From contig SKCR01021404.1 of NCBI GenBank assembly GCA_019454045.1, positions 1 to 64,000 of the forward strand: a stretch of 64,000 nt of DNA. The letters run 5' to 3'. Positions 18,533-38,970 of this stretch are shown here, piece by piece. Both the position numbers and the translations under genes were made by a program. This DNA comes from Zanthoxylum bungeanum. Lineage: Eukaryota > Streptophyta > Magnoliopsida > Sapindales > Rutaceae. Each line of letters opens with the position of its first letter. Within the stretch, counting starts at the first letter, position 1. The notes beneath the pieces were generated by a model. It was given only the letters and a program-made list of their open reading frames with translations. It searched no databases and was not told the origin of the DNA.

Positions 18533-19821
18533 TTATTCTTTCATGACAGCTTTTGGCTCCCAAGTTGTCTCTTGGCCCTTGTGGTGTTGCCAAACCACCT
18601 TAACCGAGGGAATCCACCTCGATCGTAACTTCCTCGTCTCTCTGTCCACTATAGCTATTGGGAGTTCCAAATAGGATAGATCTTGACAGATATCCAATGT
18701 CTGAGATTCTAAAACATGAGATTTATCGTATAAGTATTTCTGTAGCATAGACACATAAAACATCGGATATATCTTATTCATAATAGGTGGAAGTGCTAAC
18801 TCATATGCTCTACCTCCAACTATGTGAAGTATTTGAAATGGCCCAATATATCTAGGGCTAAGCTTACCTCTTTTTCCAAATCTCATAACTCCTTTAAAAG
18901 GAAATGCCTTTAAAAACACTGAATCACCTACTCGAAACCCCAAATCTTTTCTTTGGCGATCCGCATAACTTTTCTGGCGACTTTGAGCAGTTTTCATCCT
19001 TTCTCTAATCAACTTCACCTTTTCCACCATATCTTGTACCAAGTCAGGTCCAAGCATCTTTTGTTCTCCCATTTCGAACCACCCCACCGGGGATCTACAC
19101 TTCCAGCCATATAAGGCTTCAAAAGGAGCCATCTGAATACTCGTCTGATAGCTATTGTTATAGGCAAACTCTATAAGTGGAAAATGTTGGTCCCAACTAC
19201 CTTCAAAATCTACCACACAAGCTCGTAACATATCCTCCAAAGTTTGAATGGTTCGTTCTGATTGTCCATCCGTTTGAGGGTGAAACGTCATACTAAAACG
19301 TAACTGGGAAACCAAGGCTTCTTGGAATGATTGCCAAAACTTAGACGTAAACTGAGAACCTCGATCAGAGATTATTGAGATGGGTATTACATGCAATGAT
19401 ACTACCTTATCCAGATACAGCCTGGCATACTGATCTACTTAATTAGTCTTTACGGACAGAAAATGTGCGCATTTCGTCAATCTGTCTACAATCACCCAAA
19501 TAGAATCATAACCTTTCGAGGTACGAGGACGCCCAACTACAAAATCCATAGTAATCTTCTCCCACTTCTATTTAGGGACATCCAAACTTTGAAGTTTCCT
19601 TGCTGGTCTCTGATGCTCAGTTTTAACTTGCTGACAAGTGAGGCATTTTACAACAAACTCCACTACATCTCTTTTCATACCGTCCCACCAATAGAGATCT
19701 TTTAGATCATGGTACATCTTGGTAATTCTATGGTGTATAGTATAGGATAAGGCGTGGGCTTTCTCTAACAATGAGTTTCTCAACTCAGAAATTTGAGGAA
19801 CAATAATTATGCCCTTCTTTC
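18533..19821 (-). pseudogene. Chromovirus integrase with chromodomain, broken
   Basis: From 19821 down to about 19568 there is the zinc-binding part: His residues in the HALSYTIHH segment and the CLTC pair. After a degraded stretch (19397-19567) comes the catalytic core with ISDRGSQFTS (second Asp), HPQTDGQSERTIQTLEDML (Glu) and the GPFQIL region. A C-terminal chromodomain (RSRWIPSVKVVWQHHKGQETTWEP) ends at 18533. Chromodomain and sequence type point to the Tekay/Del kind of chromovirus. The chromodomain would steer insertion toward marked chromatin. The N-terminal end is cut by element E at 19822, and stops between the blocks make it a pseudogene. Confidence 0.85.
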
Positions 19822-20719
19822 TAACCGGCGTAAACACACACGTATAACGCAAGCGCACGTTTCGTTCAAGTAGTATAAAAATATGGATCCCACGAGGACT
19901 TAATTCCTACTGTTGTTATTAATTATTGAATCTATTTATTTACAAATATCTAATTGAGGGTGAAGATAATGATTGTTTGATTGATTTGGTTGATTGTAGA
20001 TTTGCTAAATAAATAAAAAGACAAAAGAAAATACTGAGGAAACTAACAAAAGACACAAAGATCTAGGGTTGTGAATCCTTCTAATATCTTTTAAAAGATG
20101 AAGTGATTATTTTATGTTTGTGTAATAAATCGGTTTACTAACCTGGAACACGAAATTATGCGAAAGCCTCTGTCGATGGTCAGACGCAAATACCCAGTTT
20201 AACCCAATTGAACCAAATGTCTATGTCAACCAAATTATCTGGATTCATTAAGTTTGAGTTCCAATTATGGCTACCCCCGCCCGACAGGTATATGTCTATC
20301 CTGTAATGAAATCTATTAAAGGGTTATATATCCTCAATGAAGATCGTGGGCTATTAAGTCTAAGGCTGAAACCTAAAATCCCTATGTCTAGTTCATTTTA
20401 GATTTACCAGATCAATCTTATTGGTGATCAGACAACAAGAAGCATTAAGCTTAAGACTTAATAAGTAAACCTTTAAATTACCCAAACTATAAAATAACCC
20501 CTTATAAACCGGTGATATTAGAATTCATCACAACCCCAGATAACTAACACATAACTAGGGCTAGTAAAAACTTAAAAGTAAAAGATATAAAGTAAAAATG
20601 CTGAAAAGTAAAAGACATAAAGTAAAAACTGAAAAGTAAAATAAAATAAAATGCTAAGGTAAAAGGATCAACTTTTACTATTTAGATATCTCCCTTAATA
20701 TAATATATTAACTTGAGAT

Positions 20720-20930
20720 TATTTTACCAACCAGCCATATAGGCGGTAACCTGATTAAGTCAAATTAAGTCCAACCAGCCATAAAGGCGGAACCAAAATA
20801 AACCTGCCATATAGGCGGTAAGAAAATTTAATTACCAACCGACCAATCTGGCGGTATCCTTGATTAGTCAGGTTTAAACCAGATTAAAATGATTTACCAA
20901 CCAACCAATATGGCGGTATCCTTTTTAAGT
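20720..20930 (-). repeat. Array of CC(N5)GG dyad words in the E LTR
   Basis: Five words of the type CCAGCCATATAGGCGGTA lie at about 20733, 20773, 20803, 20841 and 20903; variants include CCATAAAGG and CCAATATGG. The 5' LTR keeps the same set (28320-28510), and solo LTR E' has four reversed counterparts (about 39810-39945). Confidence 0.6.
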
Positions 20931-21195
20931 CAATATTTTAAATAGTGAATATATTATTTTTAAGGGAGATTAATCTAAATAGTAACAGTAAAAGAATTAC
21001 CTTTCACCCTAGCTGGGGAAGTTACCTCCTCATGGTGAATAGTAAAAACTGTAAAAAGTAAGAAAGTAAATTACTATTATTACAGAACGTAATTAAAATT
21101 AATTACAAAACTAAAAACTAAAAGAAACTGGATAGAAAACTCCATATTTACATCAGAGAATTCAGAGAGAATGGTACATTTGAAACTGAAACATA

Positions 21196-21210
21196 GAGTT
21201 GAATTTATAG
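21196..21210 (-). promoter_or_regulatory. TATA region of the element E LTR
   Basis: The - strand reads CTATAAATTCAACTC. The same 15 bases occur in the LOG promoter of this element (24006-24020). The 5' LTR has the matching site at 28788-28802, right where element D inserted. Confidence 0.6.
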
Positions 21211-21275
21211 GCATCGGTAGGCTCTGGGCGTCGCGACGCCTAGGCCTTTGGCGTCGCTACGCCAGCTTCTTTTGG

Positions 21276-21688
21276 ACGTGGCATGCTGAGGTGATGACAC
21301 GTGGCGATTCTGGATAAGGTGATAAGGTGACACGTGGCAAGGTGGTTGGAGCTCAATTATTATGACATGTGGCGACTTCTGATTGGTCGGTTCAGATTCT
21401 TATCCACCACATGTCAGATAAGGATAAGTCAATCAATAATTGATGCTGACGTGGCGACACGTGGCAAAGTGAATGTCGGCACTATAGAATTGCGACACGT
21501 GGCACGCTGTGATTGGTTGATGATGACGTGGCAGCCACGTGGCACTTTGACTTGGTCAACATGTGATGTGGATGATGACGTGGCAATGATGTGGAGTGAC
21601 ACGTGGCGATGGCGACTGTCAGCACCGTAGGATGATGACACGTGGCACGGCGAATGTTAGTAGATTGGCTGTGATGGTGACACGTGGC
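21276..21688 (-). promoter_or_regulatory. G-box/ABRE array in U3 of element E
   Basis: CACGTGGC starts at 21298, 21331, 21458, 21496, 21536, 21600, 21639 and 21681. ACGTGGC without the leading C occurs at 21276, 21449, 21526 and 21578. The array ends about 65 bp upstream (- strand sense) of the TATA box. CACGTGGC is the classic plant G-box/ABA-response core bound by bZIP and bHLH factors (established for plant promoters). That it drives this LTR is inference. Confidence 0.65.
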
Positions 21689-21992
21689 ACGACGCACGTT
21701 AGCAAAGTCAAATTTTCTCAGATTCTAATTTATGGACCCGGAGCACATTAGCACTATTCGGTGCGTGTTAGGCGTCACGACGCCAAGGGCTTGTGCGTCC
21801 CGACGCTGAAAATCACCAAAATTCCCTTTTCGTCCAATTTTCACTGTTTTACTCCAAATCACCTCCAGAATGTCCTGAAACTTTATTTATCTACAAAATA
21901 ACACAAAACACATCAAAATATTCACAATACTCAAGAAACTATACAAAATATTAAGTTAAATGAGTGGGAAATAGTGATAGATTTACCACTCA

Positions 21993-22008
21993 TCACACCC
22001 CCAAACCT
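21993..22008 (-). other. Polypurine tract of element E
   Basis: On the - strand AGGTTTGGGGGTGTGA directly precedes the LTR start TGAGTGGTAAATC. Confidence 0.7.
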
Positions 22009-23317
22009 AACATTTTGCTAGTCCTCGAGCAAAACACAATAAAATAAACATCTTTAAAATAAAATTTAACTAAGCCACTTTCGTAGGGATCATGGTTGCA
22101 TTTAGCGTATGCAACAAGCCTTTAAACCCCTAGGTGTCCCTAATGGACGAGTTGTAGTCTCGTGAGGGTTTACAGTAATGATACCCACAAATATTTTACA
22201 AAAGTAAAAAGGTAGTGAAACTAATGCACACAAAAGCAAAATGACAAGCGAAAATAGAATAAAGAAGTTAGTGACTAATCAGGTGAAACTTCTACTCCAA
22301 GTTACTGGTTGTTTTGTTTCTTTCTAAATTACTGAATAAGTAAATTCTCCGATCATTTTTACCATTCTCCATATACACAGCCAACAAAATATTAAACAAC
22401 TCATTTTTGCCCACAACAGTCATAAGTGCAGTTGATAAGAGAGTAATATTTTTGTCCTAAAGTTTTATCGGAATTCACACCTATTTGTAGCAATGGAATA
22501 ATTTTTCTGATTTTTCTCTTTGATTTTTTTTTTATCTTTTATTTATACACAATATCTTCCGTCTATGTAGCGAGCTTTGGGCCGGTGGCTCCCAAACCAG
22601 TTGACTTTAGGGCACCAGGTGTTAAGACACCCCTACGGAATTAATTACTCAGACTTCAAATATATATATTTTTGCAGCATCTTTGATCCATGTAGCGAGC
22701 TTTGGGCCAGTGACTCCCAAACCAGTTGGTTTTAGGGCACTAGGTGTTAAAACACCCTTACAGACTTAATAACTCGGATCTCAGATTTTTTTTTTTTACT
22801 CCATTGCTTTTTGAGATGCTTCCTCCAATTAAACTAGAGCACTGAATATTACAAACTTTTCAATTTTAACTCATGTCCGTATGTTACTATGCCTGTTGAT
22901 AATACCTGCCAACTGAGTATATGAAGATCCATTTTAGTCAATTTTATGGAGAATTCACAAATTAAATAATTCAAAAGGAAATAAACAAAAATTAACTTGT
23001 TTCAAAAATGGTTTGAGATACGTCTCAGGAGTGGAAATTCCTTACACATCTATCTCTTACCAATTTCACTTTTTTAGTCAAAATAAAAACACAAAAACGC
23101 AAAATATTTTTGTAATTTTTTGAAAAATTTTCAATTTTTTTATGTATTTTTCGAAAAATTTTGGACTAAAAATAAAAATAACACACAAACTAAAAACAAG
23201 GTACTGATCAACTAATTCCCTCCCCCAAACCTAAATGAGACATTGTCCCCAATGTCTTAAACAGTAGAAGAAGAAGTTTAGAAGATAATACCTGGTTAGC
23301 TGAAATTCTACAGAAAA
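22009..23317 (-). other. Element E region between LOG gene and polypurine tract, with a 125-bp duplication
   Basis: No coding frame was seen. A block containing TGTAGCGAGCTTTGGGCC is present twice (starting near 22560 and 22685, period about 125 bp), each copy with TTAGGGCAC and CACCC blocks. The rest is AT-rich with short T-runs near 22528 and 22788. Confidence 0.6.
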
Positions 23318-23971
23318 TTAAAGGTTAAGATCCAGATTAATTCGACGCCTCTTACCACGATCGTCCTCGGACCAATTTATCTTTGAAAGGATAGGGTCAA
23401 CTTGTGGTTCATAGGCTAAGAGTTGGTCAATTAAATCCGGAGAAGTTCTGGCAGTAAAGAGGAGTTCTTTCATAGGTTTTGACACGAACCCATTTCTCTG
23501 AGCATCATCAAGAAACACACAAAGAAAATCATAAAATCCTTCAATGTTGTACAGTCCAAGCGGTTTCTGGTGTATGTTCAGGTTTGCCCAAGAGAGCACT
23601 ATAAAAATTTCCTCCAATGTGCCCAAGCCACCTGGCAAAGCAATAAAAGCATCGGCACGGTTAATCATTTCTACTAATCGTTCAGACATACATGGCACGA
23701 TCAGTTCATCTCCGTTTGATGATCCAACAAGATTTGCCTCTGCCAAGGGTTTTGGGATGATTCCCAAAACATGACTGCATCCTTCCTGTACGGCCTTTGA
23801 AACGATCCCCATTAGTCCAAGATTGACTCCGCCATATATTAAGTGCATATTCCTTGCAGCTAAGACTCGACCCAATTCATGTGCTGCCTCTACGTATTGT
23901 GGCTTAGTACCAACACTAGTACCGCAAAACACACAGATGTTTTCAACTCGTCTTCTTGAAGTGGCTTCCAT
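23318..23971 (-). CDS. LOG-like cytokinin riboside 5'-monophosphate phosphoribohydrolase, inside element E
   Basis: This is an intact 217-residue frame with an ATG in an A-rich context and no introns. It covers the usual full length of the LOG (lysine-decarboxylase-like) family. It opens with ICVFCG (12-17) and YGGVNLGLMG (46-55; the third Gly of the usual YGGG is Val), then GIIPKPL (70-76), Arg98 in MSERL, and the signature PGGLGTLEE at 113-121. Arg98 and Glu121 correspond to residues known to be needed for catalysis in LOG enzymes. The Lys that usually follows Arg98 is Leu. LOG enzymes release active cytokinin bases from their nucleotides in the cytosol. The C-terminus adds a basic GKRRR and an EAR-like LDLNL (213-217), unusual for LOGs. 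A second copy lies in element D. It has its own TATA box at 24006. Activity is inferred, not shown. Confidence 0.85.
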   Translation of the reverse strand: MEATSRRRVENICVFCGTSVGTKPQYVEAAHELGRVLAARNMHLIYGGVNLGLMGIVSKAVQEGCSHVLGIIPKPLAEANLVGSSNGDELIVPCMSERLVEMINRADAFIALPGGLGTLEEIFIVLSWANLNIHQKPLGLYNIEGFYDFLCVFLDDAQRNGFVSKPMKELLFTARTSPDLIDQLLAYEPQVDPILSKINWSEDDRGKRRRINLDLNL

Positions 23972-24005
23972 TTTTTACTTTGGATGTCTTCAAAAGTGCA
24001 ATGAT

Positions 24006-24020
24006 GAGTTGAATTTATAG
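24006..24020 (-). promoter_or_regulatory. TATA region of the element E LOG gene
   Basis: CTATAAATTCAACTC on the - strand, 35-49 bp before the ATG. Element D's LOG copy has TATAAATTCA at the same relative place (34233-34241). The 15-base string is identical to the TATA region of the E LTR (21196-21210). Confidence 0.6.
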
Positions 24021-24475
24021 AACCTGAAAGGGTGAGTAACAATAGCACTAGTATCTTCCAGAGGACGTTTGTTTGCTAAACAACAAAAGAAATCGTGAAA
24101 GGTAAAAAAGTATGGATCTTGTCTATGAAAATAAAGATAATTACAACAGAAAAACAAATCAAAGCAATAATTAAGGCAACGGCATTGTGTACGTAATACG
24201 CCACTAGCTTAGTATAAATTCATTAGGATGCGTCTCAAGAATCCATTCCTTACTCAGCCATTGCTAATGAATTGTCTCTTATCTTTGCCAAACACCATTC
24301 CTCCTGTCTTATGCTTTGGTTGAGCTTTTCCCTACAAAAATAACACACAAAATTAAAAACTCTACAACATGTATACACAAAATTTAAAAATAGAAATTAC
24401 AACAAAGTGCATGGGTTGCCTCCCTGCTAGCGCTAAATTTTTCATCTTCAGCCAGACGTGACTGAAATCTATCTG
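24021..24475 (-). other. Conserved upstream block of the LOG gene in E
   Basis: Non-coding, but clearly related to 34242-34930 in element D. Shared words include the TAATGAATT...CTTTGCCAAACACCA region, a 3'-splice-like TTATTTTTGTAGG on the - strand (about 24330), GGGTTGCCTCCCT (about 24413) and CTTCAGCCAGACGTGA (about 24448). The function is unknown; an untranslated exon or element regulatory sequence is possible. Confidence 0.55.
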
Positions 24476-27164
24476 TCAATGAGGTTTCAGCGTCGTTTTG
24501 GACGTCCGATTAACGACAATCCCGTGAGCGCTGCTTTTGAAGGGTCTTTTCCAACGGTAAAGTGGCAAAAAATATTTTGTCACATTCAGTGCTTGTGCCA
24601 CCTTTTTAACCTTTGTTGCTCCAGTGGTTCCTGAAAAGAAAGAAAGAAAATCAGGAGGTCTCGTATAGTGCTTGACTTTGAATGGAAGTTCCATTCTGTC
24701 AAGCTTCTGGGTGATATCTTTGATTTGTACTCCCCAAAACAGTGATGTTTCGCCTGAATTCACTGGATCTTCATTTTTGTCTGACAATTGCTCATCTATT
24801 TGCTCTGTTTCTATTTCCACCTTTTCTTCACAGATGAATTTTAAAATTTATGTATTCAATTCTTCATCTGTCATTTGTGAAATGCATGCTCCATATGTTG
24901 GAATTCTCTAAGCTTCCCAAGATCGAATCAAGCAATGAAAATACATGTGAATACAATCAACGAAGTTGCGGAATACTTACATCGATCGGTTGAGACGATG
25001 CGGTGATGAACAAAAACGTTATGTCCTCCTCCATGAAGTTCGGCAGTGACTGTTTTTGATGTCCCAAAATTCAACCATGTGTGGTCCTCCATGGAAGCTC
25101 CAAGCTCCAAGCTTCAACAATGGTGATTCCATGCACATGGGTGGGTTTCCCTATCACCTATGGACGACTCCGGAGTGTGCTAGCACCTTGATTTTGCAAC
25201 AAAATCACTCATTTTCTTCTCTTACTGCTCACGGTAGTGAGTAAACCAGAAGCTCAAGAACAGACAATTTTGGGCATGAGAATGGGAGAGAAGAGAGATA
25301 TGAGAGAAATGTTAGGTTGTTGTTTTTAATTGTGTATCTAATTTTCTCTCTCATCTAATTAATCCCAGATAAATAAAAGTGTGAGTCATACGTCATCGGT
25401 GAATCTTCGGGAAGTGACCCATGAGATCCCCGGATATGTTGGCAGTAAATTCGGTCGTCGGACTATCCGAACACGTAAGTACCTAGTACTATATTTATAC
25501 CGATTTACAAGACAATGTTGGCTTCTAGCAAAGCGCCATGCCTACCCAATTCTCTAGAAATATCCTTACAGGAATATAAGATCTATATCAGGCGTAGTAT
25601 ATGTAGTATTGCGTATGTCGATCCAGTATCAGATGTTCACGTGCTAGGCCTGGGGCTGGAATTGTGTCTGCCCCGTACGAATCACATGTCGGATGTCTGG
25701 TAACTAGTCTCTATAATCGGATAAACCTGACCTTGTCATTTTATCCCGATGACTACAGTACATAAGAGAATCAGTACCGTATCCTACGTGACCATCATCT
25801 CCATATGACTGGAGTGACACTTCCGTCTTGACATCACACCAACACACTAAGATTCATGATATACCCAGAAGAGGCGTACACAGAAACCGGTTAAAACCCT
25901 GGACGACTAAAACCAAAGTTTATTGATTGTCGCAAGTATTAGCGGTGCAAGTCTCAAGTAAAGACCAAATACACCTACCCTGATTTCGGACTTCCATAGA
26001 CACATAGTCATACTACCAATGGAATTCCGAGGGGGTCTATCCAGAGCGAAGCTGTTTCCCATACCATCGGTAAAACAAAACCTCCTATTACACTTGCATG
26101 AGTATCATATACCCAAATATATGAGAACTATGATGTTATGCCCTCACAACGCGCACAAGTGTAATACTAGTATTTTACGTATTTATCGATGTCCAATCTC
26201 GATAATACTCTGACTAGGGATATTTAATGATTAATCCTTCGTGGACTGATATTGTCTCATATCATTCTCAATCCAGGAACAAATCATAGGGACCTCCTAT
26301 CATTTATATATCTTGGTGATCTAATCACAAATGATAAGAGAGCAATCTCATTTGTCACATAGTTAATTTGTACAACAACATTATGATCTGTACAAATAGT
26401 GACGCTATGGGTCATAATTGTCCAACACCAAAAGTATCTGTCTGATGATGTAAAGATGTTTCTGACATTAGGTCGTCATCCTCTGATACGACTAGAATTG
26501 ATGGTTCAGGTAGATCTTCATCAAACATCATGGTAAAGCATGCTCCAAGATCTTCATTTTGAGGATTGAAAGTTTGATCCTCCTTTGTTGGTGCAGTTGG
26601 TACAAATAGCTCAGCTTTTTCATCCTCGTCAGAGTCAGAATAATAAAAGTCAAATAGAGACTTTGTTGGTTCAGGCTCCGGAGCTGATACTTCTGGTTGT
26701 TGATAATGCTCAGCCTCCTCCTCTGCTAAAGTGTCATCATGAAATGCTTGGTACTTGAAGGCTTCATCAGTGTCATCTGAAAATGGTCCATGAGGTATGT
26801 AGCTCTGATTTTCTGTTAATTGTCTCATCTGATCTGTCAGTCTCTGAATGAATTCTGATTGTCTCTGAATACTTTCAAATTGATTCTGGCATGTTTCAAG
26901 CATTGTATCCAACTTTTCGTCTTGTTTATTGACCCAATCTTTGAGCATGTCAATCATCTTATCTTCCTCTGATGGTTGATGAAGATCGTAGGTAGATGGT
27001 GGATAAGATGGAAAATATGATGGTTCTCCATACCTTGAATGATTCTGATAATTCTGCCACTCTGAAAAGTATATGCATTGATCTCTCGAGTGGTTACCAT
27101 CACAAATTACACATCTCCCCATTTCATTCTGATGAGCAAATGTAGTATTGCTTGATTCTGACAT
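24476..27164 (-). pseudogene. Zinc-knuckle ORF of element E, split by solo LTR A3
   Basis: Taking out the A3 insertion (with one 5-bp duplication) leaves 1152 nt in a single frame, 384 codons including the stop. One premature TAA lies at 24848-24850. The N-terminus (residues 18-30) has CVICDGNHSRDQC, a CX2CX3HX4C zinc-knuckle-like motif. A Tyr/Pro-rich stretch, a Gln/Glu-rich probable coiled coil (about 70-120) and a strongly acidic middle follow; the C-terminus is basic. The layout resembles a gag-like RNA-binding protein of non-autonomous LTR elements, but I do not recognise the family. It is the only other coding region of E and lies upstream of the LOG gene. Confidence 0.65.
24896..26427 (-). 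repeat. Solo LTR A3 (Copia family A)
   Basis: TGTTGGAATT...TGTCCAACA, 1532 bp, matching A1 and A2 LTRs along its length. The flanks CCATA (24891-24895) and CCAAA (26428-26432) are a 5-bp duplication with one mismatch. Removing the LTR plus one copy of the duplication restores the reading frame of the interrupted ORF, which confirms the boundaries. No internal sequence remains. Confidence 0.85.
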
Positions 27165-27389
27165 CTAGTGATAGTTGTTGGGTTGGTCAACAGGCCTCAG
27201 ATACCGGACTGTTGCTCCCAGATTTGGGGTGTATCTTCTAATAAAGCTTGTGATCTCTCAATCTCCCAATAATGTTCCATTTTTCAATCACCTGAAAAAA
27301 AAAAGAAATAAAAATTACAGATAAAAATAAAGAAAATTATATACAAGTAAATTAGATAGCTTCAAAATCAATAACTCAAGAAAAATAAG
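27165..27389 (-). other. Leader of element E
   Basis: A short non-coding stretch between the primer-binding site and the ATG of the zinc-knuckle ORF. A-rich; no further feature seen. Confidence 0.5.
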
Positions 27390-27407
27390 TCCCCGGCAAC
27401 GGCGCCA
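27390..27407 (-). other. Primer-binding site of element E
   Basis: The - strand reads TGGCGCCGTTGCCGGGGA, the site common in plant TAT/Athila-type and LARD elements, six bases beyond the LTR end. Confidence 0.8.
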
Positions 27408-27413
27408 AAAACT

Positions 27414-28802
27414 TGACCGGTGTAAACACACACGTATAACGCAAGCGCACGTATCGTTCAAGTAGTATAAAAATATCGATCCCACGAGGACTTAATTCCT
27501 ACTGTTGTTATTAATTATTGAATCTATTTATTTACAAATATCTAATTGAGGGTGAAGAGAATGATTGCTTGATTGATTTGGTTGATTGTAGATTTGCTAA
27601 ATAAATAAAAAGACAAAAGAAAATACTAAGGAAAATAACAAAAGACACAAAGATCTAGGGTTGTGAATCCTTCTAATATCTTTTAAAAGATGAAGTAATT
27701 ATTTTATGTTTGTGTAATAAATCGGTTTACTAACCTGGAACACGAAATTATGCGAAAGCCTCTGTCGATGGTCAGACGCAAATACCCAGTTTAACCCAAT
27801 TGAACCATATGTCTATGTCAACCAAATTATCTGGATTCATTAAGTTTGAGTTCCAATTATGGCTACCCCCGCCCGACAGGTATATGTCTATCCTGTAATG
27901 AAATCTATTAAAGGGTTATATATCCTCAAGGAAGATCGTGGGCTATTAAGTCTAAGGCTGAAACCTAAAATCCCTATGTCTAGTTCATTTTAGATTTACC
28001 AGATCAATCTTATTGGTGATCAGACAACAAGAAGCATTAAGCTTAAGACTTAATAAGTAAACCTTTAAATTACCCAAACTATAAAATAACCCCTTATAAA
28101 CCGGTGATATTAGAATTCATCACAACCCCAGATAACTAACACATAACTAGGGCTAGTAAAAACTTAAAAGTAAAAGACATAAAGTAAAAATGCTGAAAAG
28201 TAAAAGACATAAAGTAAAAACTGAAAAGTAAAATAAAATAAAATGCTAAGGTAAAAGGTTCAACTTTTACTATTTAGATATCTCCCTTAATATAATATAT
28301 TAACTTGAGATTATTTTACCAACCAGCCATATAGGCGGTAACCTGATTAAGTCAAATTAAGTCCAACCAGCCATAAAGGCGGAACCAAAATAAACCTGCC
28401 ATATAGGCGGTAAGAAAATTTAATTACCAACCGACCAATCTGGCGGTATCCTTGATTAGTCAGGTTTAAACCAGATTAAAATGATTTACCAACCAACCAA
28501 TATGGCGGTATCCTTTTTAAGTCAATATTTTAAATAGTGAATATATTATTTTTAAGGGAGATTAATCTAAATAGTAACAGTAAAAGAATTACCTTTCACC
28601 CTAGCTGGGGAAGTTACCTCCTTATGGTGAATAGTAAAAACTGTAAAAAGTAAGAAAGTAAATTACTATTATTACAGAACGTAATTAAAATTAATTACAA
28701 AACTAAAAACTAAAAGAAACTGGATAGAAAACTCCATATTTACATCAGAGATTCAGAGAGAATGGTACATTTGAAACTGAAACATAGAGCTGAATTTATA
28801 GG
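27414..28802 (-). repeat. 5' LTR of element E, truncated by element D
   Basis: Collinear with 19822-21210 of the 3' LTR, with only scattered differences. It stops right at the TATA region (28788-28802), where the D LTR starts. The U3 part with the G-box array is missing on this side, so its promoter is broken. Confidence 0.85.
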
Positions 28803-31190
28803 TGTAGACAACAGAAACTGGACGACGCTGTTCCGGGCTCGCGGCCCGATCGGGAGTACGGAGTAGCCCGCGGGGGACTGAACCGTACGAAATAAAATGG
28901 AGCCGCCACCCGGTGTGAACCGGGAAAATGAGATTTAAGGCCGCACTCACCCCTCGCAAGGGAAGACCTCAAACCGTTGGGTTCGGAATGGTCCCTTACT
29001 TGTGTCGTTTGTAATGAATGAATTTGTGCAATATTAACCAAGTCCACACAACATGCTTAAGAACAGCCTATTAACCATGCATTAAAACATCATCATGCTA
29101 AACAACCTAATCATGCATAGGAAAATAAATATCATACTAAACAATTACATCATGCTTAGAAACAACCAACTAATCATGCATTAAACATCATACTAAACAA
29201 CCTAATCATGCATAGGAAAATAAATATCATACTAAACAATTAAATCATGCTCAAGCACAACCAACTAGTCATGCATAAAACTATAACATATTAAACATCC
29301 TAATCATGCATAAAGCAATAATAAACTTAAACGACTACATCATGCTTAGAAAATAAATAACGGAAATAAATTAACTCATGCTTAAGAAATAAATAACATA
29401 CTAGCAACCTAATCATGCTCAAATACAAGGTTTGAGTGGAATGAAACATATGAATCTTTCAAGTGGTACGGGGCATTGTATCCCGAGTGCAAACCATATT
29501 ACCGTCCATTCGGATTCGGCTATGAAATTTATGTCCAGGTTTCCATCCAATATACCACAAAAAAGAACACATATTTCATTCACCTGAAATCACATCATAC
29601 ACTAATTCACAATACTCATGCGAAATACAATAATAAAATAACTAAAAATAAAGGATAATAAATAAAAGGGTGCCCTCAGGTCTTACCTTTTAAGTCGCTT
29701 TCCGGGAGTGCGTTCCACGGTGCCGGAAGGGATATCGTTTTGTTGTTTTCACTGGTCCACTTATTCTACTGTTTTCACAAGTTCACTGTTTTCTCTGTTT
29801 TCACTCGTCCGCTGTTTCCGTTGTTTTCACGGGTCCGCTGTTTCTACTGTTTTATCTATTTTCACTGTTCTCGTTGTTTTCTCGGGTTTCCGCTCACCGT
29901 TTTCTCTATTTTTCTCACTGTTTTAACTCGCCGTTTTCACTGTTTTGCTCAAATTCTCTCTGTTTCTAAATCCAATTTTTATTCTCTCTCTTGGGTAATT
30001 TTTGGATCAGTTTTAGGGTTAATTCACGTGGATTTAAGAGCTGTTTGCATGTGAATATGGAGAGGGGTTATAGAGGATGGTTTACGGCAATGATAGTGGG
30101 ATTCTCAAGTTATGTTTTCGGCTGTGGAGGCTTAATGGGCAATGAGGATGCGTGAAGGCAAGGTGCGAGGGGTGTGGTATGCTCAGCAGTGGCGTGCATG
30201 AGGTGCTCGGCAGTGAGGGGTGCTGTGCGTTCTAAATGGTTTTGGTCAGTGCTAGGCGTGATGGGCTGAGATTGTGGTGAGCTCGGCTTGGCAGTGGTTA
30301 GGGACGTGAGGGTGATGCTTGATGGGTTCTAGGGTTGTTAAGGGTGCTCGGCAATGAAGGGTTAGTTCACGGTTTTATTGATGGTGTGTGTACATGCAGA
30401 TGCACTGGTGGCTTTTGGCTGTGGCAGTGAATCAGCGTGTGTTGGCTGATGGAGTTCAAAAGGCGTTGTGGGTTATGTTCATGAGGTGGTGAAGGCAGTG
30501 GCGTATGCGTGAGTTGAAGGGCTTACTTGTGAGTTGAAGGGCGGCTAAGTGGCTGGGTTGAAGCGTGAAGGTTTAATGGTTACAGGGGCTGCCGAGAGTG
30601 ATGAAGAAGATAGGGGCTGAGTTGGGTGCAAGTGAAGGCTGATGAAAATGGCGTGGGTTCTCCCTTGTGCCTGAAGTCCTTGCCTCTATCATGGTTTCAT
30701 GGCAGTGACCTCATCAAGGAGGGCTGAATGATCCAGATCATGGAGATGATGGGGCGTGAATGTTAAGAAGATAATGGAGGAGATTCGGTGATGGGCTGGC
30801 TGGCGCATGCATGGGTGTTTGTATGGAGGGTGCAGGGAATAATGGTTGATTGTGGATGGGTGAGAAATGGGTTGTGATTTGTTGTTTTGTGTTTGGTTAA
30901 AGGTGACAATTGTTTATGGTTTTGTTTGTTTGGGCGTGGGCTTTGGTTTAGGTGGGCTTGGTGTTTGGGCCAAGGAAATGTTGCTTGCGAGGGTTTTGGG
31001 CAAGAATGATTTCAAAACTGAGACCGAACGAGCGAACCTGAAACTTGAACAAGCGAACCAAATCCAATAAAAATGTCGACTCTTGACCTTTCCCTTTCGA
31101 CGACCGCTTTCCGTAACTTCCGCAACTAAAAAGTAGTGCCTCCATACGAGGCTCATCATTGGGCTGGTATGCAAAAATGCAATGCCTACA
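28803..31190 (-). repeat. 3' LTR of element D (2.39 kb)
   Basis: TGTAGACAAC...AATGCCTACA, with the polypurine tract directly beyond 31190. It is nearly identical to 36790-38838 over about 2.0 kb. It contains recurring CATGCA words (29076-29310) and a stretch of CTGTTTTCAC-like words (about 29740-29950). Open frames inside (29476-30054, 30867-31070) also occur in the other LTR where it is present, but look like chance. Confidence 0.85.
29076..29310. repeat. CATGCA (RY-like) motif array in the D LTR
   Basis: CATGCA starts at 29076, 29112, 29176, 29208, 29270 and 29305, set in partly repeated AAACAACCTAATCATGCATA-like units. The other LTR has the same region at about 37060-37300. CATGCA is the RY core bound by B3-domain seed regulators; a role here is speculative. 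Confidence 0.5.
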
Positions 31191-31204
31191 GTCGCCCCCA
31201 CTTT
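31191..31204 (-). other. Polypurine tract of element D
   Basis: AAAGTGGGGGCGAC on the - strand directly precedes the LTR start TGTAGGCATTGC. Confidence 0.75.
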
Positions 31205-31354
31205 GATGGGACTTGTGCAGTGTGTGACAATGACAATTCTATCAAAGTACGTGCAATGTATTTTTACTTACCTGGCTCGCCAGCTGCCACCTGACTCACC
31301 TGTTGCTTCGAACTGAATTGATTTGGTGGTGAGGTACTGCGACCCCTGGGTCTT

Positions 31355-31955
31355 GTTCCCGAAGTGAGCTGAGGGTCTTGTTCCCTGAATTGCGGGTCTT
31401 GTTCCCGTGGGTCTTGTTCCCATTTTGAGCTGAGGGTCTTGTTCCCTGAATTGTGTTGTGGGTCTTGTTCCCGTGGGTCTTGTTCCCATTTTGCAGGTCT
31501 TGTTCCTGATTGTGGGTCTTGTTCCCAAATTGAGTTACAGGTCTTGTTCCTGATTGTGGGTCTTGTTCCCAAATTTAATTGCAGGTCTTGTTCCTAATTG
31601 TGGGTCTTGTTCCCGAATTGCAGGTCTTGTTCCTGATTGTGGGTCTTGTTCCCGGATTGCAGGTCTTGTTCCTGATTGTGGGTCTTGTTCCCGGATTGCA
31701 GGTCTTGTTCCTGATTGTGGGTCTTGTTCCCGAATTGCAGGTCTTGTTCCTGATTGTGGGTCTTGTTCCCGAATTGCAGGTCTTGTTCCTGATTGTGGGT
31801 CTTGTTCCCGAATTGCAGGTCTTGTTCCTGATTGTGGGTCTTGTTCCCGAATTGCAGGTCTTGTTCCTGATTGTGGGTCTTGTTCCCGAATTGCAGGTCT
31901 TGTTCCTGATTGTGGGTCTTGTTCCCGAATTGCAGGTCTTGTTCCTGTTTTGAGC
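31355..31955 (-). repeat. 39-bp minisatellite in element D
   Basis: Units of 39 bp are made of two related halves (GCAGGTCTTGTTCCTGATTG and GGGTCTTGTTCCCGAATT). Eight regular units start at 31620 and repeat exactly every 39 bp to 31932; looser units extend left to about 31355. Because 39 is a multiple of three and the unit lacks stops, open frames appear on both strands; they are by-products. Confidence 0.85.
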
Positions 31956-31969
31956 TGACTGTGGGCTTT

Positions 31970-32480
31970 GTTCCCAAAGACTGATACTGATATGGGCCTC
32001 ACCCCCGACTGATACTGATGTGGGCCTCGCCCCAAACTGATACTGATATGGGCCTCGCCCCCAGACTGATACTGATGTGGGCCTCCCCCCAAACTGATAC
32101 TGATATGGGCCTCGCCCCAAACTGATACTGATACGGGCCTCGCCCAAACTGATACTGATGATGCTGCAGGCCTCAGCCCTGAGACTCATCCCCGAAACTG
32201 ATAATGATGCTGATGTGATGTAGGCCTCGGCCCTGGAACTCATCCCCGAAACTGATACTGATATGGGCCTCGCCCAAACTGATACTGATATGGGCCTCGC
32301 CCCAAGCTGATGCTAATGTGGGCCCCCCAACTGATACTGACCCTGAACTGATGTGGGCCTCGCCCTCAGAATGCCATACCCGGCCGATACTGATCATGAA
32401 CTGATGTGGGCCCCGCCCCCAGGTTGAGATAGGCCTCGCCTTCAAACTGATACTGATGTGGGGCTTCGCCCCCAAGCTGC
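31970..32480 (-). repeat. 26-29-bp minisatellite in element D
   Basis: About 15 loosely conserved units contain TGATACTGATATGGGCCTCGCCCC. It adjoins the 39-bp array. Unit length and spacing drift, unlike the neighbouring array. Confidence 0.75.
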
Positions 32481-33519
32481 TATGATATTCTACTTCACAC
32501 ATTACACCACCTCTCACGAGATAATCTTTGATAGATAGACATATTTTTGTCCTCAACGAACGCTTCGTGTCGAAACCAGAGAACCTTCAAAGTACTTGAT
32601 ACACTCAATTCCGATCGTCTGAATGGGTGATCTGAGTTAGACTCCTCGTGTGTGTGTGTCAGGGCTCTTTCGCAGCTTAGTCCTTAAGTAAGCCAACTTG
32701 GTGATTTCGTTTCAGAGAATCGAACCAGTGGGTCTAACCAACCTGGATGTCTTAATCACATTCTGTGATTACTTCAGCATACTCAACATGATATGGTTTT
32801 CATTTTTTTTCTTTTGTCTCTTTCTTTTCATTTTTCATTTTTTTCTTTTTTTCTTTTCTTTCTTTCTTTCTCTTTTTTCTTTTCTCTTCTCTTTTTCTGA
32901 CACACCTACCCTTTAAGGTAGCATTTCTCCTCATGGTGGTCCTAATACTCGCCCATGGGTAGCTTCACGCTTATCGGTTATAGGTGGTCTATTTTTTTTT
33001 CAGAGACTTGTTTTTTATTTCAACCATATCATATATCATAGCATCAGCAAACAAGTGTGGACATTCTGGCAAACGGTCATTCACCAATACATCATCTCTT
33101 CAACTAGTCACCTAGCTAACCACTCAGGCTTCTACTGCTAGGATCCCATAATCAAGTGCTCGTGAGTCTAACTGAGATCAATCCATTCAAAATACTGGAT
33201 GAAAGCGCGTCTCGCACTTTTTGTTTCTAGGGTTTCTCCCTACAGCATGCAATGTCATCACAGGACATATGTCTAATTATCAAAGACTTCTCTCACTCAT
33301 TTTTTTTTTCTTCTTCTTTTTTTTCAATTTTTTTTTCTTTTCTTTTCATTTTTTTTTTTTTCACTCTCTTTTTTTCACTCTTTTTTTTTTACTTTTTCCA
33401 TTCTTTTTTTTTTCTTTTTTTTCAATTTTTTTTTTTTTTAATTAAAATGAAATACAAACTTTTCAAATAAAACACAAACTTTTCAAATAGGCCTTGGGAT
33501 ACCTGGTCAGCAGGGCACA
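32481..33519 (-). other. Element D region downstream of LOG, with purine-rich tracts
   Basis: T/C-rich tracts on the + strand lie at about 32795-32895 and 33296-33440, so the - strand transcript would hold long A/G runs. The rest shows no gene. Phe-rich frames on the + strand here are artefacts of the T-runs. Confidence 0.6.
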
Positions 33520-34174
33520 TTACCGATTCAGATCAATGTCCAATTTGCGCTTCTTGCCACGATCACTATCAGTCCAGTCCAATTTGGAGATGATAGGGTC
33601 AAGCTTCGGCTCAAAAGCCAGGATCTGGTCAATCAACTCTTCGGCCTTTGTTGCCGTCAGGAAAATGTCTTCCACAGATTTGGTGACAAATTCATGTCTC
33701 TTGGCTTCCGCAAGAAACACAAACAGGAAATCGAAGAAGTGCTCAATATTAAGCAACCCGATGGGTTTCCGGTGAACGTTTAGGTGTGCCCATGACGCCA
33801 CTGTAAATATTTCTTCGAATGTGCCAAGTCCACCTGGTAATGCAATGAACGCATCTGCAGTATTAATCATTTCATGGAGTCGTTCAGACATACCTAATAC
33901 AATGCGCTCGTCTCCATTTGTTGGCCCGATTAACTGTTCATCTGCCAAAGGTCTCGGGATGATTCCCAAAACATTACCGCCACCATCTTGAACGGCTTTT
34001 GAAACAGCTCCCATCATTCCCAGATTGCCACCGCCATATACCAAGTGCATGTTTTTTCGCAGCCATGACTCGCCCCAATTCCTTAGCAGCTTCCAAGAAT
34101 TTAGGTATGTTACCAGGGTTAGATCCACAGAAGACACAAATTTTCTTGAATCGTTGTTGTGAGGTAGCTTCCAT
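33520..34174 (-). pseudogene. LOG-like gene of element D, frameshifted
   Basis: The ATG at 34174 opens MEATSQQRFKKICVFCG. A run of six A (- strand; 34057-34052) in the codons after MAA shifts the frame by one base, and the rest (HLVYGGGNLGMMG, GIIPRPL, MSERL, PGGLGTFEE, down to 33520) continues in the next frame without stops. It shows about 63 % identity to the E copy over 177 residues by hand count. The C-terminus is GKKRK then LDIDLNR, so the EAR-like motif is altered. It has a TATA box at 34233. One recent lesion in an otherwise clean frame suggests late loss of function, or possibly a sequencing error in the homopolymer. Confidence 0.8.
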
Positions 34175-34232
34175 CTTTTTTTTTTTCTTACTTGGATGTA
34201 TATTTGAATGTGTTGAGGAGAGCAATGCCGCT

Positions 34233-34241
34233 GAATTTATA
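34233..34241 (-). promoter_or_regulatory. TATA box of the element D LOG gene
   Basis: TATAAATTC on the - strand, about 60 bp before the ATG, matching the position and sequence of the box in element E. Confidence 0.55.
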
Positions 34242-34930
34242 GGACCTGCAAAAGAGGTGAATAATAATTGCAATAACATATTCCACTGAATGACGGTTAG
34301 CTAGATCACAAAAAAGTCATCAGAAGTCAAGAAAGGCCATCGGATCATGTCTGCAAAAACAACGAGAGAAATCGTGAGATGTCAAAAGTTGTGGATTCGT
34401 TCCAGGAAAATAACATAAAATAACAAAGGAGATCGTGATACGTCAAAAAGCTGTGGATTCTTTCAATGAAAATAACAGAAAATACCAAAGGAAGCTCTAA
34501 AATGTCAAAAGTTGTGGATCTCTTCCACTTCAACATGTCGTGAATGGTCCAAACAGTTATAGATTTCTGCCACCATTAATGAATTATCTCCCATTCTTGT
34601 GATTGCCAAGCACCAATCCCTATGTCCTAACTTGCTCCGCCTTTGCTTTCACCTGCAAAAATAACACAAAATTAGAGATTTTACAAGAACTTGAAACAGG
34701 AATCACAGCAACTTGCATAGGTTGCCTCCCTTTCAGCATTAACTTCATTGTCTTCAGCCAGACATGATCGAAGTTCTTCTGTCAGTGTGGCATCACCATC
34801 GTCTTTAGTGCTTGCCGCTTTTGATCTTCGCTGCTTCCTTGCTCCGCCTTTGTTCATCGTCTTCAGCCAGACATGACCGAAATTCTTCTGTCATCGTGGC
34901 TTCACCGTCGTCTTTTTGTGCTCGCCGTTT
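34242..34930 (-). other. LOG-upstream block of element D, with internal duplication
   Basis: Related to 24021-24475 of element E. A segment with CTTCAGCCAGACATGA is present twice (about 34754 and 34860, period about 106 bp). Related GTTGTGGATTC and AAATCGTGAGATG words recur around 34365-34525. A 3'-splice-like TTATTTTTGCAGG lies on the - strand near 34655. Confidence 0.5.
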
Positions 34931-36120
34931 TTTTTTTTTTTTTTGCTGCTTTCTTTTCTTTCTCTCTTTCTTTTTTTTCTTTAAACCTGCAAATACAAAA
35001 CAACAGAATAAATACGTGTGCATGTAAGTATGCAAGTGTAGAGATACTCCCTTTTCGTGATGGGTTGGATCCTCATTGTGCTCATCGGCGCCATATGTCC
35101 CCGGTCGCCCCTTGATGGTTCCCATCTGTTTGAAATCTATAAAAACAAAACACAAAACAAGAATGCAAGTTACGTGTATGCATGTATGTATTTCCTATCC
35201 TGTTGGGTTAGGTCTTCCGCCTGTTCCCTCGGTGACCGCTCAATTCTTTTTTTTCCAGCAAAGTGCAGTTTCAATCTGCTTACGTCGACCGACTTGGTGA
35301 ATTCCTCATTTCCCAAATCTGGTAGTCTCATTGCCTTGTTTCCCAATCTTCTGTCTTTTCTGCTTTTTCTTCTGAGAATTCTCCATGTTTCAGATACCTC
35401 TGAACATCATAATACCAAGGCCTTCTGTCATCGGCTTCCACATCCGATATCTCTCATGTCTCATACACCGGCTTGCTTGCAGTTGTCAGCACAAGTGGTC
35501 CCATCACCAATTTCTCTGGATTTTCTCAAGCCGCAGCTAGTGTCACCAATGTGTCAGTCATCTGATTTTTTCCGACAAGTGCTGAAATCTAAAGTCAGAG
35601 ATTTTCTGTGCCAGACTTCTGAGGTAGAACAACAATTATCCCTTTAACTCTTATTCTCATTGCATCTTCAGTTTTTCAAACATCTTTTGACAACGGTTTA
35701 CTCAAACTGGAGAGTTGTCTGTTTCTGATAGGAGAAGTCTTGAGGAAGTAGACCCGGTCTTTGAAGGTTTCCCAATGATCTTTTCATTCTGGTTGCACAA
35801 GTCTCTGTTACTAGCTGTATAGGGCACGGTCAAACTGGTCACATCATTGTTCAGGACTTGCAACTGCTCAAAATCTCGGCTACCTTGGCTTCCAATTGAT
35901 CCAGGCGGGATTCTTCGTTGACTGCCTCACTTATTCTGGTTGGCGATTCTTTTGACGGATCTTTCTTCTTTCCTAATCCAACGGGAGTCTACTATGGCTT
36001 TTAAGACAAAAAGGGTTAACATGATGCGTGTATGCGTGACATGATGTATGATGTAAACAGATTCAAAAATAATTTACACTAATTGGCTCGTTATCATTTT
36101 AAAGTATTCAATCACACTAT
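34931..36120 (-). other. Element D region without recognised gene
   Basis: It begins with a T-rich tract (34928-34981). On the - strand two splice-acceptor-like sites (ending TTTGCAG near 34987 and TTTTATAG near 35138) bracket an open stretch. It could be remnants of exons or decayed gag, but no domain is recognisable. A 196-codon + strand frame (35057-35647) has no recognisable motifs and is not supported. Confidence 0.4.
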
Positions 36121-36124
36121 TGCG

Positions 36125-36690
36125 CAATGCAAACTTGTCCCAGTTGAAAAGGCCCAACAAGTTTACACTTTTGCGATAACAGGGCTAAATAACTTCAAAT
36201 GATAAAAGGCCCAAACACAAACTGGCCCATCGGCATTTCAGAAATTTCGGCCTAATTGTCAAAAGGACATGAACTTGTCCCGGTTTAAACGACAACGAGT
36301 TCACATCTTTTTAACAAATAGTCCAACTAAATCCAAATGACAACGGTCCAAAACACAAACATAAAACAAACTGGCCCATCGGCATTTCAGAAATTTTGAC
36401 CTAATTGTCAACAGGACATGAACTTGTCCCGATTTAAACGAAAACGAGTTCATATCTTTTAACAAAGAGTCCAAATAAATCCAAATGACAACAGTCCAAA
36501 ACACAAACATAAAACAAACTGGCTCATCGACATTTCAGAAATTTTGACCTAATTGTCAAAAGGACATGAACTTGTCCCGATTTAAACGAAAACGAGTTCA
36601 TATCTTTTAACAAAGAGTCCAAATAAATCCAAATGACAACAGTCCAAAACACAAACATAAACACAAATGACAACAGTCTAAAACACAGGC
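36125..36690 (-). repeat. Tandem repeat of about 148 bp near the D primer-binding site
   Basis: ACTGGCCCATCGGCATTTCAG-type unit starts occur at 36221, 36370 and 36518 (spacings 149 and 148). A diverged partial unit lies before (from about 36125) and a partial one after. Units 2 and 3 differ at few positions. Confidence 0.8.
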
Positions 36691-36768
36691 ATAAACACAG
36701 TAGTCATGATTAATTAAAACACAAATCACAAACATTACAAGATATCATTTCGGAGACAATTCTCTATA

Positions 36769-36786
36769 TCCCCAGTGGAGTCGCCA
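36769..36786 (-). other. Primer-binding site of element D
   Basis: TGGCGACTCCACTGGGGA on the - strand, three bases beyond the LTR end. This type is found in plant TAT-like Gypsy elements and differs from that of element E. Confidence 0.75.
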
Positions 36787-36789
36787 GAC

Positions 36790-38838
36790 TGTAGACAACA
36801 GGAACTGGGCGACGCTGTTCCGGGCTCGCGGCCCGATCGGGAGTACGGAGTAGCCCGCGGGGGACTAAACCGTACGAAATAAAATGGAGCTGCCACCCTG
36901 TGTGAACCGGGAAAATGAGATTTAAGGCCGCACTCACCCCTCGCAAGGGAAGACCTCAAACCGCTGGGTTCGGAATGGTCCCTTACTTATGTCGTTTGTA
37001 ATGAATGAATTTGTGCAATATTAACCAAGTCCACACAACATGCTTAAGAACAGCCTATTAACCATGCATTAAAACATCATCATGCTAAACAACCTAATCA
37101 TGCATAGGAAAATAAATATCATACTAAACAATTACATCATTCTTAGAAACAACCAACTAATCATGCATTAAAACATCATACTAAACAACCTAACCTAATC
37201 ATGCATAGGAAAATAAATATCATACTAAACAATTAAATCATGCTCAAGCACAACCAACTAGTCATGCATAAAACTATAACATATTAAACATCCTAATCAT
37301 GCATAAAGCAATAATAAACTTAAACGACTACATCATGCTTAGAAAATAAATAACGGAAATAAATTAACTCATGCTTAAGAAATAAATAACATACTAGCAA
37401 CCTAATCATGCTCAAATACAAGGTTTGAGTGGAATGAAACATATGAATCTTTCAAGTGGTACGGGGCATTGTATCCCGAGTGCAAACCATATTACCGTCC
37501 ATTCGGATTCGGCTATGAAATTTATGTCCAGGTTTCCATCCAATATACCACAAAAAAGAAAACATATTTCATTCACCCGAAATCACATCATACACTAATT
37601 CACAATACTCATGCGAAATACAATAATAAAATAACTAAAAATAAAGGATAATAAATAAAAGGGTGCCCTCAGGTCTTACCTTTTAAGTCGCTTTCCGGGA
37701 GTGCGTTCCACGGTGCCGGAAGGGATATCGTTTTGCTGTTTTCACTGGTCCACTGTTTCTACTGTTTTCACAGGTTCACTGTTTTCTCTGTTTTCACTTG
37801 TCCGCTATTTCCGTTGTTTTCACGGGTCCGCTGTTTCTACTGTTTTATCCATTTTCACTGTTCTCGTTGTTTTCTCGGGTTTCCGCTCGCCGTTTTCTCT
37901 GTTTTTCTCACTGTTTTAACTCGCCGTTTTCACTGTTTTGCTCAAATTCTCTTTGTTTCTAAATCCAATTTGTATTCTCTCTCTTGGGTAATTTTTGGAT
38001 CAGTTTTAGGGTTAATTCACGTGGATTTAAGAGCTGTTTGCATGTGAATATGGAGAGGGGTTATAGAGGATGGTTTACGGCAATGATAGTGGGATTCTCA
38101 AGTTATGTTTTCGGCTGTGGAGGCTTAATGGGGGGCAATGAGGATGCGTGAAGGCAAGGTGCGAGGGGTGTGGTATGCTCAGCAGTGGCGTGCATGAGGT
38201 GCTCGGTAGTGAGGGGTGCTGTGCGTTCTAAATGGTTTTGGTCAGTGCTAGGCGTGATGGGCTGAGATTGTGGTGAGCTCGGCTTGGCAGTGGTTAGGGA
38301 CGTGAGGGTGATGCTTGATGGGTTCTAGGGTTGTTAAGGGTGCTCGGCAATGAAGGGTTAGTTCACGATTGTATTGATGGTGTGTGTACATGCAGATGCA
38401 CTGGTGACTTTTGGCTGTGGCAGTGAATCAGCGTGTGTTGGCTGATGGAGTTCAAAAGGCGTTGTGGGTTGTGTTCATGAGGTGGTGAAGGCAGTGGCGT
38501 ATGCGTGAGTTGAAGGGCTTACTTGTGAGTTGAAGGGCGGCTAAGTGGCTGGGTTGAAACGTGAAGGTTTAATGGTTACAGGGGCTGCCGAGAGTGATGA
38601 AGAAGATAGGGGCTGAGTTGGGTGCAAGTGAAGGCTGATGAAAATGGCGTGGGTTCTCCCTTGTGCCTGAAGTCCTTGCCTCTATCATGGTTTCATGGCA
38701 TTGACCTCATCAAGGAGGGCTGAATGATCCAGATCATGGAGATGATGGGGCGTGAATGTTAAGAAGAGAATGGAGGAGATTCGGTGATGGGCTGGCTGGC
38801 GCATGCATGGGTGTTTGTATGGAGGGTGCAGGAAGGAT
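36790..38838 (-). repeat. 5' LTR of element D, truncated
   Basis: Nearly identical to 28803 to about 30845, but it lacks the last 350 bp or so of the complete LTR. It ends at a scar next to chromovirus gag sequence. Confidence 0.8.
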
Positions 38839-38970
38839 GGTAACTGATATGCTGGTACTTGGCAATCTCTCTTCAGATGACCTATTTATCCACATTGGTA
38901 ACAACTCCTACCCTCAAGTCGGAAAACTTATGTATGAGGTCGCCCACAACTCAAACATGGTGGGGGTACC
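38838..38970 (-). pseudogene. Chromovirus gag zinc-knuckle segment
   Basis: On the - strand a frame with an in-frame stop reads PPCLSCGRPHT, then CYQCG*IGHLKRDC, a CX2CX4HX4C zinc knuckle. It is the continuation of the gag at 40776-41806, from which it is separated by solo LTR E'. Protease and RT, which should follow, are absent. Confidence 0.7.

Follow-up and report, generated by a model that had tools for sequence, protein, structure and literature searches.

During a computational analysis of a 64,000-nucleotide stretch of the Zanthoxylum bungeanum genome (contig SKCR01021404.1, positions 1 to 64,000 of the forward strand; hereinafter, the window), we examined two adjoining elements with long terminal repeats (LTRs), denoted E and D, each of which contains an intronless gene of the LOG family of cytokinin-activating enzymes. 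Comparison with the 3.96-Gb assembly (51,709 contigs), of which the window is a part, indicates that an Athila-like lineage of Ty3/gypsy retrotransposons very likely carries LOG as a conserved accessory gene. The complete scenario, in which LOG is an accessory gene that has been kept for a long time, E is a non-autonomous derivative, and D holds the same cassette within another frame of LTRs and primer-binding site (PBS), appears to us probable.

A genome-wide profile search for the LOG domain (PF03641) yielded at least 150 matches, all above the cut-off and nearly all extending over the full 131 positions; these were scored from 47,331 loose first-look candidates (such candidate counts do not give copy number), and 150 is a lower bound. 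Similarly, a search with the DNA of the E LOG gene produced at least 40 copies, the window's own included, that are 95-100% identical and essentially full length (40 were scored from 6,299 candidates, again a lower bound). Host LOG genes contain introns, so a match to one of them would be divided among its exons; the LOG copies that we looked at are intronless. Twenty loci were fetched at steps down the 150 matches (two near contig ends were replaced, and L012 and L013 are short), and all 20 contain a LOG sequence 79-90% identical to the E LOG, in two pieces in L015 and over 211 of 217 residues in L028. The 18-mer of the E PBS, with no or one mismatch, is present in 10 of the 20 loci and exactly in two further upstream pieces. 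In those 10 loci, LOG is enclosed by a direct-repeat pair of LTRs, with the PBS located at the end of the 5' LTR (in L017 and L022, this end was taken from the match to the E LTR); addition of 5 kb of upstream sequence to L023 and L027 revealed LTR pairs of 98.1% and 98.5% identity and an exact PBS, which brings the total to 12 of 20, the upstream sequence of the other eight having been read in part. Sequence similar to the E LTR lies downstream of LOG in 19 loci, a junction like that between the polypurine tract (PPT) and the 3' LTR start of E recurs in L016, L017, L021 and L024-L027, and the longest match of the E internal region in each locus covers LOG wholly or partly, with approximately 82-93% identity.

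In a scan for pol that was limited to some of the loci, matches to reverse transcriptase (RT), RNase H and integrase were detected in L023, which is one of the 12 LTR-paired loci, and in L015; gag was found in L026. The Athila-like traits thus comprise the LTR pair and the tRNA-Asp-type PBS, in E and/or the fetched loci, along with the Ty3-type order of RT, RNase H and integrase in L023 and L015. Given the LTR pairs and the PBS around LOG and the presence of pol in L023, LOG can be considered a 3' accessory gene of a gag-pol lineage and E one of its pol-less derivatives. The initial annotation had envisaged a lineage lacking pol altogether, which the matches in L023 and L015 rule out. Its central proposal, that LOG is stable cargo of a lineage of LTR elements, is in contrast strongly supported by the genome-wide copies, by the 12 loci in which LTR pairs and the PBS surround LOG, and by the constraint on the E and D genes described below. 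All this pertains to the E type: none of the 20 loci is of the D type, D is known here from one copy, and the D LTR gave short matches in L019, L023 and L024, none of which pairs around LOG. A scan of viral contigs for relatives of LOG detected none.

The LOG genes of E and D are on the minus strand, as are both elements, in agreement with the initial annotation, and match PF03641 with 115 and 114 bits, respectively (cut-off 27), as well as the LOG-family structures 2a33 and 1ydh from Arabidopsis. The traits of the family that were found are the PF03641 domain and the residues of PGGxGTxxE and MxxR, which we take to be catalytic. In a phylogenetic tree of 157 sequences, 135 form a single clade apart from 22 canonical LOGs, with an SH-aLRT support of 100. 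The tree, which was built with a quick method and without bootstrap, included 155 of 187 database proteins (those of at least 195 amino acids less three fused Xanthoceras entries) together with E and a portion of D; the canonical sequences came from the weakest part of the list of D matches and were labelled by name, one being nameless. E and D belong to different sub-clades, which are both supported and contain 5 and 8 sequences, and the named members of the retrotransposon LOG clade are proteins of Reevesia, Populus, Paulownia, Xanthoceras and Diplodiscus; the clade proteins of the other plants presumably sit in retrotransposons as well. Throughout the clade, the PGGxGTxxEE motif and the arginine of MxxR are invariant or nearly so. 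Three Populus entries annotated as LOGL10 (P0043, P0052 and P0071) fall in this clade, and so may be transposon genes.

The E and D LOG genes differ with dN (nonsynonymous substitutions per site) of 0.234 and dS (synonymous substitutions per site) of 1.84 over 177 codons, a ratio of 0.13. For E together with 18 of the loci (L015 and L028, with broken matches, were omitted), the median dN/dS over 171 pairs is 0.20 at a median dS of 0.21; because these loci were picked from the top profile matches, their dN is lowered, a bias that does not extend to E and D. For 9 of the 12 LTR-paired loci, identity along the longest aligned segment of the LTRs is 94-98.5%, such that much of the LOG divergence there predates insertion; the three other pairs show 89.4% (L009), 88.0% (L021, with a second segment of 517 bp at 98.1%) and 80.7% (L010) identity.

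The similarity of E and D extends into a block of approximately 520-630 bp upstream of LOG, noticed already in the initial annotation, for which the best local score is 224 compared with at most 37 in 100 mononucleotide shuffles. A common block longer than 500 bp, combined with the dN/dS of 0.13, shows that the two cassettes share an origin and have been under purifying selection, and so represent a single old, constrained cassette. Ahead of the LOG start codon, the motif TATAAATTCA is found exactly in 21 of 22 copies (in L009, it is one base off), directly preceded by a pyrimidine-YAG run, with TAG in L011 and L025 and CAG elsewhere. The initial annotation ascribed to each gene its own TATA box, to which TATAAATTCA corresponds, but the YAG part is equally well explained as a splice acceptor-like site. 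We also considered the LTR core promoter as the source of the motif, given that TATAAATTCA is present in the E LTRs, but the fetched loci disagree: additional occurrences are confined to L021 (position 8097, near the 3' LTR) and L022 (position 478, ahead of an incomplete LOG copy upstream), and the resemblance of the motif to the LTR therefore appears to be particular to E.

A further hallmark of the clade is a C-terminal tail of the form KKR...LxLxL, that is, a basic stretch followed by an LxLxL motif that we take to be a form of the EAR motif. LxLxL occurs within the last nine residues in 120 of 165 clade sequences versus none of the 22 canonical LOGs, with 1.4 expected by shuffling, and a basic pair lies within the last 20 residues in 146 of 165 versus 5 of 22. 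Many of the 45 sequences without LxLxL are truncated or are one-residue variants such as LDIDLNR, the form present in D; the tail of E has LxLxL, and the early-branching sequences, which lack it, end in KRRRLD or KKRRLA. The EAR motif binds TOPLESS, and the tail might cause part of the LOG protein to enter the nucleus or to associate with TOPLESS-type corepressors.

Several observations weigh against the accessory-gene scenario. The E/D dS of approximately 1.8 is near saturation; an internal stop interrupts 6 of the 18 fetched LOG copies in the selection analysis and the listed open-frame stretches of 3 of the 150 genomic matches; the D gene is frame-broken; and in E, valine and cysteine occupy sites that are usually glycine, in YGGG and before MSER, respectively. 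The derivation of the fetched loci from the best 150 profile matches favours conserved copies, the piece of L028 that was read contains no E-like LTR, and the pol matches of L023 and L015 are split into separate open reading frames (ORFs). In L027, the sole copy of which both outer flanks were compared, no clear 5-bp target duplication was seen by eye. Finally, the lysine that follows the arginine in the canonical MHxRK is often substituted in the clade. Together with the tail, which sets the clade apart from canonical LOGs, this substitution would suit a protein that has left cytokinin activation to become a nuclear regulator, acting through the basic and LxLxL tail, or a structural factor. 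We consider such a change of function rather unlikely, inasmuch as PGGxGTxxEE and the MxxR arginine have been kept, and early-branching sequences that represent clusters of up to 35 members (P0033, P0035, P0036, P0086 and P0102) have no LxLxL.

The origin of the cargo, too, could be envisaged differently. A spliced LOG mRNA might have been taken up once and copied along passively, without use to the element; the lack of introns in the copies examined would follow directly, and plant LTR elements are known to carry retroposed sequences, Bs1 being an example (PMC7264820). Such passive carriage appears improbable in the face of the strong constraint between E and D, the conservation of the upstream motif, and the spread of the clade over all five genera named above. 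That E and D captured LOG independently, as their different LTRs and PBSs and the two LOG sub-clades might imply, is very improbable considering the homology of the upstream blocks and the YAG/TATAAATTCA motif and tail that they have in common. Hardly credible is the insertion of E and D into a host array of LOG genes, which the proximity of two LOGs, approximately 10 kb apart, might bring to mind: each LOG lies inside its LTR pair, LTR pairs enclose LOG on other contigs, the at least 150 matches reach far beyond these two loci, and the intronless genes cluster apart from the canonical LOGs in the tree. We rejected the array on these grounds.

LOG is located downstream of gag-pol, in the sense of the element and before the PPT and 3' LTR, a place that is taken by an env-like ORF in other elements. 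In the scenario that we favour, the protein would be translated from a spliced subgenomic RNA or from a transcript started at an internal promoter, and it would free cytokinin from cytokinin nucleotides in cells with an active element, which would favour dividing cells that pass on the new insertions.

A second gene accompanies LOG at many loci. An ORF of approximately 182 amino acids, or its broken version, precedes LOG in 16 of the 20 loci (not in L009, L017, L021 and L022); the window gave no match with an E-value threshold of 0.001, which means that both E and D lack it. The ORF of L010 matches Viral_NABP with 29.9 bits (cut-off 23) and Carla_C4 with 18.7 bits, under the cut-off of 20.9; conversely, that of L018 scores 22.8 bits with Carla_C4 and 21.5 with Viral_NABP, under 23. 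Both families (PF05515 and PF01623) consist of carlavirus-type, cysteine-rich nucleic-acid-binding proteins (NABPs). The NABP-like ORF has 334 relatives; all 120 of those listed carry a precomputed PF01623 assignment, and the sources named among them are Populus, Xanthoceras, Acer, Rhamnella and Orobanche. Structure was uninformative: the AlphaFold2 model has a mean pLDDT of 62.8, too poor to use, and the one match of the profile among solved structures (E 0.99) was judged to be due to chance. Viral proteins of this kind are described in PMC12172455 as suppressors of RNA silencing and, in one case, as a transcription factor that causes hyperplasia. Conceivably, though we would not bet on it, the old Athila-like lineage carries a two-gene cassette for host reprogramming, in which the NABP-like protein and the LOG with its basic, EAR-like tail would together counter silencing, push cell division and raise entry into the germ line.

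Retrotransposons with LOG-related sequences are not without precedent. As early as 2011, Steinbauerova et al. reportedly noted two Athila-like elements similar to LOGL4. A YgdH (LOG) domain is present in Ty3/gypsy consensuses of Citrus sinensis and C. clementina and, when a filter is dropped, in Ty3/gypsy elements of Populus trichocarpa, a finding said to agree with that of Steinbauerova et al. 2011 (PMC9289625, section 12). The kind of element is thus already known, contrary to the initial annotation, which was aware of no description. The common feature is a LOG ORF within Ty3/gypsy elements; what differs here are the at least 150 LOG matches in one genome, the non-autonomous derivatives and the second LTR/PBS frame, that of D, as well as the tail, the upstream motif and the NABP-like neighbour, which section 12 of PMC9289625 does not describe. 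A literature search over titles and opening abstract text, mostly without subscription journals, yielded among the papers listed no description of the tail or of an NABP-like gene in retrotransposons. The env-like or other extra ORFs that Athila and Bagy-2 carry between pol and the 3' LTR (PMC7264820) resemble LOG in sense, position and possible spliced subgenomic expression but encode a transmembrane protein as opposed to a recognisable host-type enzyme. Orchid Ty3/gypsy elements with an m6A demethylase domain (PMC9289625) likewise keep a host enzyme domain as an accessory gene; LOG, however, acts on hormone nucleotides rather than RNA, and its clade is found in several plant families, where the element context is presumed. 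Bs1 and other gene-transducing plant LTR elements (PMC7264820) similarly hold intronless host-derived sequence between LTRs, but as a sporadic fragment, in contrast to the conserved, high-copy and constrained gene described here. Should it be borne out, such retrotransposons, by stably keeping a gene for an enzyme that activates a hormone, would be selfish elements that influence the development of the host and not just their own multiplication. The many open copies, the conserved tail and the relatives from unrelated plants offer direct tests of whether cytokinin or transcriptional corepressors are manipulated by mobile elements of plants. For annotation, there is a warning that some genes named LOG, such as Populus LOGL10, may belong to transposons.

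Features of elements E and D in the window and of the NABP-like ORF at locus L010
Feature	Position	Strand	Remarks
E LOG	23318..23971	-	intronless, open frame of 217 aa; C-terminus KRRRINLDLNL
D LOG	33520..34174 (about)	-	intronless; one frame change near codon 40
TATAAATTCA motif, E	24010..24019	-	48 nt before LOG start codon, right after pyrimidine-CAG run
TATAAATTCA motif, D	34232..34241	-	before D LOG
Block upstream of D LOG	34174..34805	-	homologous to E ~24499-23978
E 3' LTR	19822..21995	-	repeat 19824-21211, extended by reading to TGATGAG after PPT-like TTTGGGGG run
E 5' LTR	27414..28802	-	~785 bp of its beginning gone (by reading)
E PBS TGGCGCCGTTGCCGGGGA	27390..27407	-	tRNA-Asp type, by reading
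E 5' ORF	26412..27164	-	250 aa between stop codons; Pfam scan without match
D 3' LTR (TGTAG...CTACA)	28803..31190	-	repeat 28803-30846, extended by reading
D PPT-like run AAAGTGGGGGCGAC	~31204-31191	-	directly before D 3' LTR
D 5' LTR	36790..38841	-	~343 bp of its beginning gone (repeat search and reading)
D PBS TGGCGACTCCACTGGGGA	36769..36786	-	tRNA-Arg type, by reading
NABP-like ORF	L010:4552-5094		a short way upstream of LOG; also in L011-L016, L018-L020, L023-L028

Self-comparison of the window delineated direct repeats of 98.9% identity over 1388 bp in E (19824-21211 and 27416-28802) and of 98.0% over 2053 bp in D (28803-30846 and 36790-38841). The adjoining elements of the initial annotation are accordingly present, as is the difference between E and D in both LTRs and PBSs; its LTR extents require revision, given that both 3' LTRs are longer and both 5' LTRs incomplete. 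As the 5' LTRs of E and D lack their first part, 28802/28803 is best understood as a truncation junction rather than as clean element ends, and with both 5' ends lost, a target-site duplication is not expected. As previously noted for both elements, protease, RT and integrase were not found: a Pfam scan of minus-strand ORFs of at least 60 amino acids, which covered 5 of the 9 in E and 9 of the 16 in D (14 of 25 in all, the LOG ORFs among them), gave no such match; the 7 other D ORFs are located within or next to a tandem-repeat array. The 5' ORF of E is related to ORFs in L022, L017, L021 and L009. We assign the E PBS to the tRNA-Asp type and the D PBS to the tRNA-Arg type; on this assignment, D shows the PBS trait of the Ogre/Tat lineage. 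Priming by tRNA-Arg is used by Ogre elements according to PMC9289625. Neither a Tat-type RT nor a dual RNase H was found among the 9 of 16 D ORFs scanned, so D is not assigned to Ogre/Tat.

The outer end of E lies inside an integrase-like ORF (PF17921 in 19568-19906 and PF24626 in 18533-19438), which we read as that of a chromovirus. Beyond D, the minus-strand translation of 38842-38975 resembles, by eye, a gag zinc knuckle, and this segment could be the opposite part of the integrase-bearing element that E and D interrupted. Adjoining D, the plus strand of 38961-40769 is approximately 80-82% similar to the E LTR, in the opposite orientation. Between the D LOG and the D 3' LTR, 31499-32355 consists of tandem arrays with units of approximately 39 and 28 bp. 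Within E, 25356-26427 is a repeat that is found also at 5710-6646, 42428-43490 and 52918-53980, with approximately 87-92% identity to the E copy, and in L018 and L028.

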